From Synechococcus sp. MW101C3 (GTDB lineage: Bacteria > Cyanobacteriota > Cyanobacteriia > PCC-6307 > Cyanobiaceae), in NCBI RefSeq assembly GCF_002252635.1, contig NZ_NQKX01000011.1, positions 1-64,000 of the forward strand: 64,000 bases of DNA, given 5' to 3'. Position 1 is the stretch's first letter; every line of letters starts with the position of its first letter. Under the pieces are notes generated by a model. That model did not search any database. It saw only the letters and a program-made list of their open reading frames with translations, and was not told where the DNA came from. Below, piece after piece: positions 32,956 through 38,660 of this stretch. The position numbers were made by a program, and so were the translations under genes.

Positions 32956-34455
32956 ATGACCCCGCCCCGCTGGCTGTTCTGGCACCGCCGTGACCTGCGG
33001 CTGGCCGACAATCTCGGCCTGGCGGCAGCCGCTCGCGCCACGCCCGCCGTGACCGGCGTGTTCGTGCTTGATCCGGCCCTGCTGGAGGCGAGCGACCTGG
33101 CCCCGGCGCGGCTGTGGTTTCTGCTGGAAAGCCTGCGGGAGCTGGAGCAGCGCTGGCGTGAGGCCGGCAGCCAGCTGCTGCTGCTTCGGGGGGATCCAGC
33201 CGAGCTGCTGCCCCAGCTGGCGCTAGCGATCGGCGCGGAGGTGGTCGCCTGGAACCGCGATGTGGAACCCTTCGGCCGCGAGCGCGACCGCCGCGTCGCC
33301 GCCGCGCTGCAGCAGGACGGGCTGAAGGTGCTGGCGGGCTGGGATCAGCTGCTGGTTCCCCCCGACAGCCTCTTCACCGGCGGTGGCGCTCCCTATCGGG
33401 TGTATGGGCCGTTCTTCCGTGCCTGGCGGCGCCGGCTGGAGCCGGCCGGGCCGGCGGCCGCCGGTGCTGGCGGGCTGGAGCTGGCGCCGGTAGCGGCTCC
33501 CAGCGGCCTGCTGGCTCTTGATCCCACCGCCCTGCCCGGCCGCGGCCAGGCCCTCTGGGCGCGCCTGCCGCTCCTGGACGCCGTGCCTACGACCGGCGAC
33601 AGCGCCGCTTCCCTTGGCCATGCCGGCTTCGCCGGCGCCGATCTCTGCCCCTGCCGCCCGGGAGAAGCCGCTGCCGCCGATCAGCTGGCCCTTTTCGCCG
33701 ATGGCGCCCTGCTGCGGTACGAACCCGGCCGCAACCTGCCAGGCGAAGCGGGCACCTCCTGCCTGAGTGCGGCCCTCAAGTTCGGCACGCTCAGTCCGCG
33801 GCAGGCCTGGGCGGCGGCCCAGCAGCAGCGGCCCCGCGCCCGCAGCGACGAGGACCTGCAGGCGATCACGGTGTGGGAGCAGGAACTGGCCTGGCGCGAG
33901 TTCTACCAACAGGCCCTGTTTCACTTTCCCGAGCTGGCTGACGGGCCCTATCGCCCCCAGTGGCGCCGCTTTCCCTGGGAGAACGACACGGGCCGTTTCG
34001 AGGCCTGGTGCGCGGGCCTCACCGGCGTGCCGATCGTGGATGCGGCGATGCGGCAGCTGAACACCAGCGGCTGGATGCACAACCGCTGCCGCATGATCGT
34101 GGCCTCCTTTCTGGTGAAGGATCTGATCTGCGACTGGCGCTGGGGCGAACGCCAGTTCATGCGCCTGCTGGTGGATGGGGATCTGGCTGCCAACAACGGG
34201 GGCTGGCAGTGGAGCGCCAGCAGCGGCATGGATCCCAAACCCCTGCGCATCTTCAATCCCTACACCCAGGCGGCCCGCTTCGATCCCGAGGCTCAGTACA
34301 TCCGCCGTTGGCTGCCGGAACTGGCGCACGTGGCCACTGCCGATCTGATCAGCGGGGCGATCGCGCCCCTGGAACGGCGGGGTTACCCCGCACCGATCGT
34401 GGACCACAAGCAGCAGCAGGCGCGCTTCAAGGGGCTCTACGCAGGGCTAGCCTGA
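32956..34455 (+). CDS. phrA: Class I CPD DNA photolyase
   Basis: This 499-residue flavoenzyme repairs cyclobutane pyrimidine dimers with blue light. The normal order is present: an N-terminal alpha/beta antenna domain (LFWHRRDLRLADN, FVLDPALLEASDL, LLLRGDPAELL) and then a helical FAD domain from about residue 210. FAD-domain motifs are TSCLSAALKFGTLSPRQ, WREFYQQ, MRQLNTSGWMHNR and the class I signature DGDLAANNGGWQW. The electron-transfer Trp region is intact. It follows folK and the NUDIX gene on the same strand and converges on the DegT gene. A second, rearranged photolyase homologue lies 2.7 kb away. Confidence 0.96.
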   Translation: MTPPRWLFWHRRDLRLADNLGLAAAARATPAVTGVFVLDPALLEASDLAPARLWFLLESLRELEQRWREAGSQLLLLRGDPAELLPQLALAIGAEVVAWNRDVEPFGRERDRRVAAALQQDGLKVLAGWDQLLVPPDSLFTGGGAPYRVYGPFFRAWRRRLEPAGPAAAGAGGLELAPVAAPSGLLALDPTALPGRGQALWARLPLLDAVPTTGDSAASLGHAGFAGADLCPCRPGEAAAADQLALFADGALLRYEPGRNLPGEAGTSCLSAALKFGTLSPRQAWAAAQQQRPRARSDEDLQAITVWEQELAWREFYQQALFHFPELADGPYRPQWRRFPWENDTGRFEAWCAGLTGVPIVDAAMRQLNTSGWMHNRCRMIVASFLVKDLICDWRWGERQFMRLLVDGDLAANNGGWQWSASSGMDPKPLRIFNPYTQAARFDPEAQYIRRWLPELAHVATADLISGAIAPLERRGYPAPIVDHKQQQARFKGLYAGLA

Positions 34456-37202: not shown

Positions 37203-38660
37203 TCAAGCGGCGGTGAGGCGTGGCCCCTCGAAACCGGCCCAGACCGCCCGCTCGGCCCGCTTCCAATAGCGGCTGAAGCGCTGCAGATCCACGGGGCCCT
37301 CCAGCTGCACGAACGGCTCGGGCTCCAGCACCACCAGCGGCAGGGCGGCGCCGATCGTCGCGGAAAGGTCTGCAAAGCGGGGATCCACCGCCCGGCTGGT
37401 CACCACCCCGTCGGCGCCATGGCGAGCGGCGAAAGCGAGCAACTCCTCCGCCACAGCTCCGGCCCGTAGCACCACCGGCAGATCCAGCAGGCATTCGTAG
37501 AGGAAGCCGAGCCGCTTGAGGCTGATCGCCGGGCCCTGGCCGGCGCTTCCCTCGATCAGGGCCCGGTCGAACACGAACAGGGCCGGTCGACCGGGATGGG
37601 CGCGCCAGGCGGGGTTGGCCTGCCCCAACGCCTCGCCGTGGATCCAGAGCACCGGCCGCTGCAAAAGGCCGGTTGGAGCGACGGTGGCCTGCTCGGGTGG
37701 GCCAGCGGCTGACCTGCCGGCGGTAGGGGCTGGCGGCAGGGTCTGGTCCTGCAGCGGCGGTTCCGGCAGGCTGAGCGGCGCCTCGCTGCGGAACAGCCGC
37801 TCGCCCAGCCGTTCGTAGCTGGCCTCGAACGGGCAGCCACCCGGCCGGCCGGCGCCGCCGGCTGGCGCCTTCGGGCAGGCGCGGCAGAAGCGGCCGCCGC
37901 TGAAGCGCTCCAGGTTGGCGCGGTTGAACAGGTAGGGCTTGGCACTGAAGGTTCCGGCCACCCATTGCCAGCTGAGGTTGTTGCTGGCCGGATCGCCGTC
38001 GAGCAGGTGGCGCAGGAACCAGCGGGCGCCGGTCTGCCAGCGCACCCGCCGCCAGTGCACCAGGTAGGCCGCCAGCCACATCCGGGCATGGTTGTGCAGC
38101 CAGCCCTCGTGCACCAGCTGGTGGCGAAAGGCATCGATGCAGGCCAGACCGGTGCTGCCGCCGGCGATGTCGTCGGGCAGGTCTGCGCGGTAGGCCGTGG
38201 GCGGCAGGCCGCTGGCGCCCTGCTCGCGGTCGTCCCAGATGCCCTCGCCCAGCTGCTGCCAGACGCGCTGCCAGTAGTCACGCCAGCCGAGCTCGTTGAT
38301 CAGCTTCTCCCCGGCGCTGCGGCCCAGCCCCCGGGCGGCCAGGGCCGCGAACACCGCCTGCCGCATCTCCGCCAGGGTGAGCACCCCGTGGCGGATGTAG
38401 GGGGAGAGGCGGGTCACGGCGCCATCGAGATGGTTGCGGCTGGTGGCGTAGGCCACCGGGTCGAGCGCAGCCAGCGCCGCCAGCGCCGCTGCCCGGCCAC
38501 CGCGCATCGGGCTCAGCGGTGGGGCGTCTTCGGCATCCGGGGCGGCCGGTTGCTGGCCGAAACGGGCCTGCAGCTCGACGGCCAGCTCGTGCCGATCGGC
38601 GAAGGTGCGGGGCAGATCGCCGGCGGCAGGCGGCCAGGCGAGGGGGACAGCGGGCTCCAT
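37203..38660 (-). CDS. Photolyase/cryptochrome homologue with swapped domain order
   Basis: The 485-residue protein holds both halves of a photolyase, but reversed. Residues about 60-270 are a helical FAD domain: RNHLDGAVTRLSPYIRHGVL, INELGWRDYWQRVWQQL, EGWLHNHARMWLAAYLVHW and LLDGDPASNNLSWQWVAGTF. Residues about 275-295 hold a Cys cluster (FCRACPKAP and GGCPFEASYERL). Residues about 335-470 resemble the normal N-terminal alpha/beta domain: RPVLWIHGEALGQANP, FVFDRALIEG, LKRLGFLYECLLDLP, VVLRAGAVAEELLAF and GADGVVTSRAVDPRF. These line up with the same segments of the phrA gene at 32.9 kb. The order is seen in the sequence; calling it a circular permutation is inference. Whether it repairs DNA or senses light is unknown. 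fabI is divergent. Confidence 0.88.
   Translation of the reverse strand: MEPAVPLAWPPAAGDLPRTFADRHELAVELQARFGQQPAAPDAEDAPPLSPMRGGRAAALAALAALDPVAYATSRNHLDGAVTRLSPYIRHGVLTLAEMRQAVFAALAARGLGRSAGEKLINELGWRDYWQRVWQQLGEGIWDDREQGASGLPPTAYRADLPDDIAGGSTGLACIDAFRHQLVHEGWLHNHARMWLAAYLVHWRRVRWQTGARWFLRHLLDGDPASNNLSWQWVAGTFSAKPYLFNRANLERFSGGRFCRACPKAPAGGAGRPGGCPFEASYERLGERLFRSEAPLSLPEPPLQDQTLPPAPTAGRSAAGPPEQATVAPTGLLQRPVLWIHGEALGQANPAWRAHPGRPALFVFDRALIEGSAGQGPAISLKRLGFLYECLLDLPVVLRAGAVAEELLAFAARHGADGVVTSRAVDPRFADLSATIGAALPLVVLEPEPFVQLEGPVDLQRFSRYWKRAERAVWAGFEGPRLTAA

Follow-up and report, generated by a model that had tools for sequence, protein, structure and literature searches.

How a photolyase comes to carry its two domains in the reverse of the conventional order, and what kind of enzyme results, is the question raised by a minus-strand open reading frame (positions 37203..38660; 485 amino acids, ATG start) in a stretch of 64,000 nucleotides from Synechococcus sp. 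MW101C3, referred to here as the window. In this Phr6-type protein the FAD-binding catalytic half, orthologous to Phr4/short photolyase-like (SPL) proteins, comes first (about residues 41-292; 37785..38540, minus strand), followed by a variable linker of low model confidence (residues 293-333; 37662..37784, minus strand), in which split relatives have a stop and a start codon, and by a C-terminal photolyase-type alpha/beta domain orthologous to Phr5 (about residues 334-479; 37224..37661, minus strand). From end to end the motifs read RNHLDGAVTRLSPYIRHG, DGDPASNNLSWQWVAG, CRACPK (C259, C262), GGCPF (C276), FVFDRALIEG, LKRLGFLYECLLDLP and VVLRAGAVAEELL. The Pfam family PF03441 matches residues 121-243 (E 4e-24) over the first 126 of its 203 profile positions only; the rest of the profile is replaced by a cysteine module, C259-x2-C262-x13-C276 (37833..37886, minus strand), which together with C174 (codon at 38139..38141, minus strand), the putative fourth Fe-S ligand, aligns with the residues that bind the [4Fe-4S] cluster in FeS-BCP photolyases. 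An internal control lies close by: phrA (32956..34455, plus strand), a conventional, Phr3-like class I photolyase whose end is 2748 bp from the Phr6 gene, carries PF00875 followed by PF03441. An earlier note, made from the letters alone and without naming the strand, had described a photolyase homologue with reversed domains, a cysteine cluster at their junction and the same motifs in normal order in phrA; the reversal is borne out by Pfam, profile comparison and fold, and the other two features are present as described. Both halves are under purifying selection, with a dN/dS between two species of 0.19 for the FAD half and 0.15 for the C-terminal half, and the linker is relaxed (0.80).

The reversed-order protein is a known form, published in 2022 as Phr6. 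In marine Synechococcus phr4, which encodes an FAD domain, lies next to phr5, which encodes a photolyase domain, and in two Cyanobium strains these genes are merged into phr6, which has the reverse domain order and four Fe-S cysteines and lies a few genes from phr3 (Haney et al. 2022, PMC9426592). The window protein is the Phr6 of that study: it has the FAD domain first and the photolyase domain last in one open reading frame, shares the four cysteines, corresponds to a merger of adjacent phr4 and phr5 and is likewise encoded near phr3; no difference from the published protein was detected, and it is a member of this family. The earlier note knew of no characterised photolyase with such an order and treated a prior description of the family as fatal to its novelty; that description exists in the Phr6/Phr4-Phr5 work and in the published NewPHLs of inverted topology. 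In the same study, interruption of phr4 in strain RS9916 lowered survival after UV-C and left survival after UV-B unaffected, and E. coli was protected by phr4/phr5 after UV-C with no significant dependence on light. A (6-4) activity was proposed for Phr4/5/6 from the cysteine pattern, and a programmed +1 frameshift at phr4/phr5 was raised (PMC9426592). Neither proposal is favoured by the present data. The domain reversal itself being already known, the result added here is the co-occurrence of the two halves where their genes are unlinked.

Assignment of the C-terminal half to the photolyase alpha/beta domains required profiles, since searches with the single sequence were marginal or irrelevant (PF00875 at E 0.07 in a single-model search; ThiG at E 0.7). 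Searching the PDB with the profile of the C-terminal half likewise gave marginal matches (0.2-0.4). When the orthologue profile was compared with 26 canonical photolyase alpha/beta domains taken from cyanobacterial genomes, the match extended end to end over 136 columns with a probability of 98% (E 2e-13), column-shuffled controls staying under 0.4%. The resemblance of this part to the photolyase N-terminal domain, as the earlier note had it, is thus marginal by single-model search and clear by profile-profile comparison. A fold search with the whole model returned top matches covering the FAD half only, and the C-terminal domain was therefore modelled and searched separately. Modelled alone with AlphaFold2, it forms a five-strand alpha/beta domain (pLDDT 88), and it resembles photolyase and cryptochrome N-terminal domains most closely (VIA Z 12.6-11.3 over 139-151 residues; 3zxs 12.6, PhrB 12.5, E. 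coli photolyase 11.9), so that prediction and superposition, too, bear out an alpha/beta domain at this end of the protein. Universal stress proteins of the same superfamily follow close behind (Z 10.8 over 112 residues, photolyases reaching 12.6 over 147), which means that the fold alone is not decisive and that the sequence profile decides. For full-length Phr6 (pTM 0.89) the model predicts a fixed packing of the two domains.

The origin of the order was approached through a survey of 200 genomes of the window's order, in which many matches consisted of two neighbouring pieces. Detailed reading of 81 loci gave 61 split ones and 20 fused into one open reading frame, always with the FAD half first; a survey of picocyanobacterial genomes for this order had been suggested in the earlier note. 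The survey found no cyanobacterial C-terminal half in an open frame longer than 187 amino acids outside the window's family, that is, none that is fused. Split junctions range from small overlaps (ATGA, TGATG) to spacers of 30 bases, and 16 loci are in relative frame 0, 8 in frame 1 and 37 in frame 2. The one-open-reading-frame form is explained by gene fusion, most relatives being in the two-gene state. When both halves are combined in one tree, three changes between the fused and split states are needed within the picocyanobacterial clade (100/100), and the FAD-half tree requires four; some of these changes may be losses that followed a single fusion. Fused Fe-S forms also occur on Deinococcus plasmids, in an Acidobacteria MAG, in Planctomycetes and in Methylotenera, and Deinococcus sp. 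QL22 has a split pair with a 4-base overlap. The simplest account is that the halves have been fused more than once.

Two other histories have to be weighed against fusion. The earlier note put forward a circular permutation, with tandem duplication of a conventional photolyase gene followed by loss, and this would fit the homology of both domains to those of a conventional photolyase and their permuted order. Against it, the one-open-reading-frame state of the window's family lies among two-gene states, all cyanobacteria sampled outside the family have two genes, partner genes can be unlinked, and no duplicated or intermediate domain was seen; with relatives that keep two genes, FAD half first or unlinked, the permutation gives way to fusion and is given very little credence. 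The split form might instead produce a single protein by a programmed +1 frameshift at phr4/phr5, with Phr6 as its frame-corrected form, and the short, stop-overlapping junctions found at many loci would suit such a mechanism. Yet the 61 split loci show three different relative frames, the stop codon of in-frame splits could not be bridged by a frameshift, and in at least 12 genomes a distance of 25 kb to 4.9 Mb separates the genes. A single junction type was present in the published sample; with three frames in the wider sample, a conserved programmed frameshift is disfavoured and, judged from the junctions, appears unlikely, and the reading of Phr6 as the frame-corrected form is scarcely credible. 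Fusion of two separate genes is retained here.

Among 386 cyanobacterial genomes the C-terminal half occurs in 83, the Fe-S FAD half in 82 and both in 81 (Fisher's test, 4e-80, a value that is overstated as the genomes are related). The exceptions are two genomes with the C-terminal half only and one with a weak N-terminal match only. In the first of the former (G046) the locus meets a contig edge; in the second (G527; L328/L333) the C-terminal half is in two pieces and apparently decaying, and no FAD half was found. The N-only genome (G225) has a weak and different FAD match. Of the 54 genomes from beyond the window's family, 27 have the two genes side by side, 5 have them no more than 2 kb apart, 12 keep them on one contig at a distance of 25 kb or more and 10 have them on separate contigs; the FAD half is upstream in 32 of 32 linked pairs. 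Two further checks, made after the pattern had been seen, agree with halves that travel together. The genus to which G288 belongs has unlinked genes; there the FAD half is present in 9 of 11 genomes, and the C-terminal half in the same 9. A different phylum includes three genomes in which the Fe-S FAD gene stands alone and a separate Phr5 gene lies about 1 Mb from it (E 3e-20 to 7e-20), and two genomes with a fused, Cys-free NewPHL-like protein that have no stand-alone C-half gene. The two halves are almost always co-inherited, even when their genes are far apart, and the simplest account is that they are two subunits of one enzyme. In the papers accessible, no statement of unlinked but co-inherited subunits was found. 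Two loci in the survey deserve separate mention: the protein of G225 (L185), a genome outside the window's class and in the same phylum, is a fused, Betaproteobacteria-like NewPHL without the cysteines that was possibly transferred, and in an apparently decaying copy (G418, L131) the FAD half changes frame just ahead of the Cys module.

The FAD half combines features of two photolyase classes. In the alignment, C174, C259, C262 and C276 occupy the columns that hold the Fe-S ligands in FeS-BCP photolyases, the CPF motif included, and its structure is best matched by an FeS-BCP (PhrB 5kcm, Z 16.8, against 13.7 for the class I enzyme 1iqr). Its sequence, in contrast, is far nearer to class I CPD photolyases (3e-27) than to FeS-BCPs (8e-5). 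E123, W126, N190 and M194 match the active site of class I CPD photolyases, FeS-BCPs having Q, H and L in place of E123, N190 and M194, and these residues are invariant in 54 picocyanobacterial homologues save for M194, present in 50. PF04244, the N-terminal DPRP domain, gave no match in the window protein at E values up to 10. With an FeS-BCP-like cysteine pattern and a CPD-type active site, Phr6 is best read, on these residues, as an Fe-S CPD photolyase.

The (6-4) photolyase of FeS-BCP type that Haney et al. proposed from the four cysteines would account for the ligand alignment, for the structural scores of the FAD half and for a phr4 mutant sensitive to UV-C and not to UV-B (PMC9426592), but it conflicts with the sequence similarity and the class I-like residues just described. 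Moreover, the SPL class, including SePhrC of S. elongatus, is described as CPD-repairing. A (6-4) enzyme is therefore considered rather improbable. The earlier note had also entertained a new light-sensing role. The cryptochrome/photolyase family comprises receptors as well as repair enzymes, which counts for a cryptochrome-like light receptor in place of a repair enzyme. No pointer to such a role was found; the catalytic residues are of CPD type and their near-complete conservation argues against it, as does the loss of UV-C survival in phr4 mutants (PMC9426592). DASH and plant cryptochrome models, too, score below their cut-offs, the NCBIfam Cry-DASH model TIGR02765 reaching 87.7 bits against a cut-off of 317 over the N-terminal half only. 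A receptor is accordingly held to be very doubtful, and Phr6 continues to be treated here as an Fe-S CPD photolyase. A natural Fe-S-less variant exists in three split FAD-half genes (L132 in G407, L276 and L280), which lack any junction cysteine, have PGDPRQGDPFDASYE in place of the CxxC module and still adjoin a Phr5-like gene.

Comparison with the established classes places the enzyme more closely. SPLs are described as CPD photolyases with an Fe-S cluster and without an alpha/beta domain (Xu et al. 2021, as reported in PMC9178010 and PMC9649867); SePhrC of S. elongatus is classed as an SPL, and SPLs have been proposed as the antenna-less forms from which the whole photolyase/cryptochrome family descends. 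The Phr6 FAD half resembles them in being class I/III-like, with a class I-like CPD active site and Fe-S cysteines, and Phr4 may on these features be assigned to the SPLs. Phr6 differs from their description in having a C-terminal alpha/beta domain, which split relatives encode in a separate gene. If Phr4 is taken as an SPL, the presence of the partner gene implies that SPLs in these genomes do not lack an alpha/beta domain but have it encoded elsewhere. The NewPHL photolyases share the inverted topology (Emmerich et al. 2020, as given in PMC13274461). By hhalign the C-terminal domain of NewPHL-like proteins is homologous to Phr5, with 97% (E 1e-10) for the set from Bacteroidota and others and a weaker 76% (2e-5) for Betaproteobacteria, and a terminal FxxYW-type motif is common to Phr5 and the NewPHL-like domains; that of Prochlorococcus Phr7 (NewPHL) gave no hhalign match to Phr5 and is too divergent to decide. 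In 15 NewPHL-like and 4 Phr7 sequences the Fe-S cysteine module is absent, whereas window Phr6 has all four cysteines. The whole inverted-order group lies on one side of a branch separating it from canonical photolyases (99 SH-aLRT). FeS-BCPs (PhrB, CryB), which share the four ligand positions, the CPF motif and the fold of the FAD half, differ by their conventional order, their PF04244 N-domain and an active site with H-H and Q. Class I CPD photolyases (window phrA; 1owl) share the active-site E, W, N and M, the FAD motifs and a homologous alpha/beta domain, but have the conventional order and no Fe-S cysteines.

The best explanation, held with good confidence, is that Phr6 is a fusion of the FAD/Fe-S SPL protein Phr4 with its alpha/beta partner Phr5. 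In such an enzyme the N-terminal half would bind FAD in the manner of class I enzymes, and the four cysteines would hold a [4Fe-4S] cluster; the alpha/beta domain would dock on the FAD domain from the other end of the chain, covalently in Phr6 and as a second subunit in the split forms. Photo-excited FADH- would then repair cyclobutane pyrimidine dimers, probably in single-stranded DNA if the analogy with NewPHL holds. For Phr6 we infer CPD repair as well as occupancy by Fe-S and FAD; its alpha/beta domain may bind an antenna chromophore or may serve only to close off the FAD site. Against this explanation stands the UV-C protection of E. coli by phr4/phr5 without significant need for light (PMC9426592), which is odd for a photolyase.

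For the SPL FAD protein there appears, then, to be a partner encoded by a gene of its own, and the enzyme probably has two subunits. That SPL/Phr4 is in general the catalytic subunit of a two-gene enzyme, whose Phr5 gene is separate, in many cases by hundreds of kilobases, and has been reverse-fused in several lineages, is somewhat favoured. If the catalytic half does need a separate partner, short photolyases become weaker evidence for a primitive state of the family, the question of a frameshift at phr4/phr5 is answered in the negative, and the enzyme provides a natural system for testing whether domain connectivity matters in photolyases.

The genome of the window contains four cryptochrome/photolyase genes, namely phrA, Phr6, a PF04244 FeS-BCP with four cysteines and another PF00875 protein; the loci are C7 22731 (L181), C8 111533 (L003) and contig C11. 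Outside the cyanobacteria, two fused reversed-order photolyases on Deinococcus plasmids (L296, L299) are found near transposase genes and are annotated only as FAD-binding domain-containing proteins.
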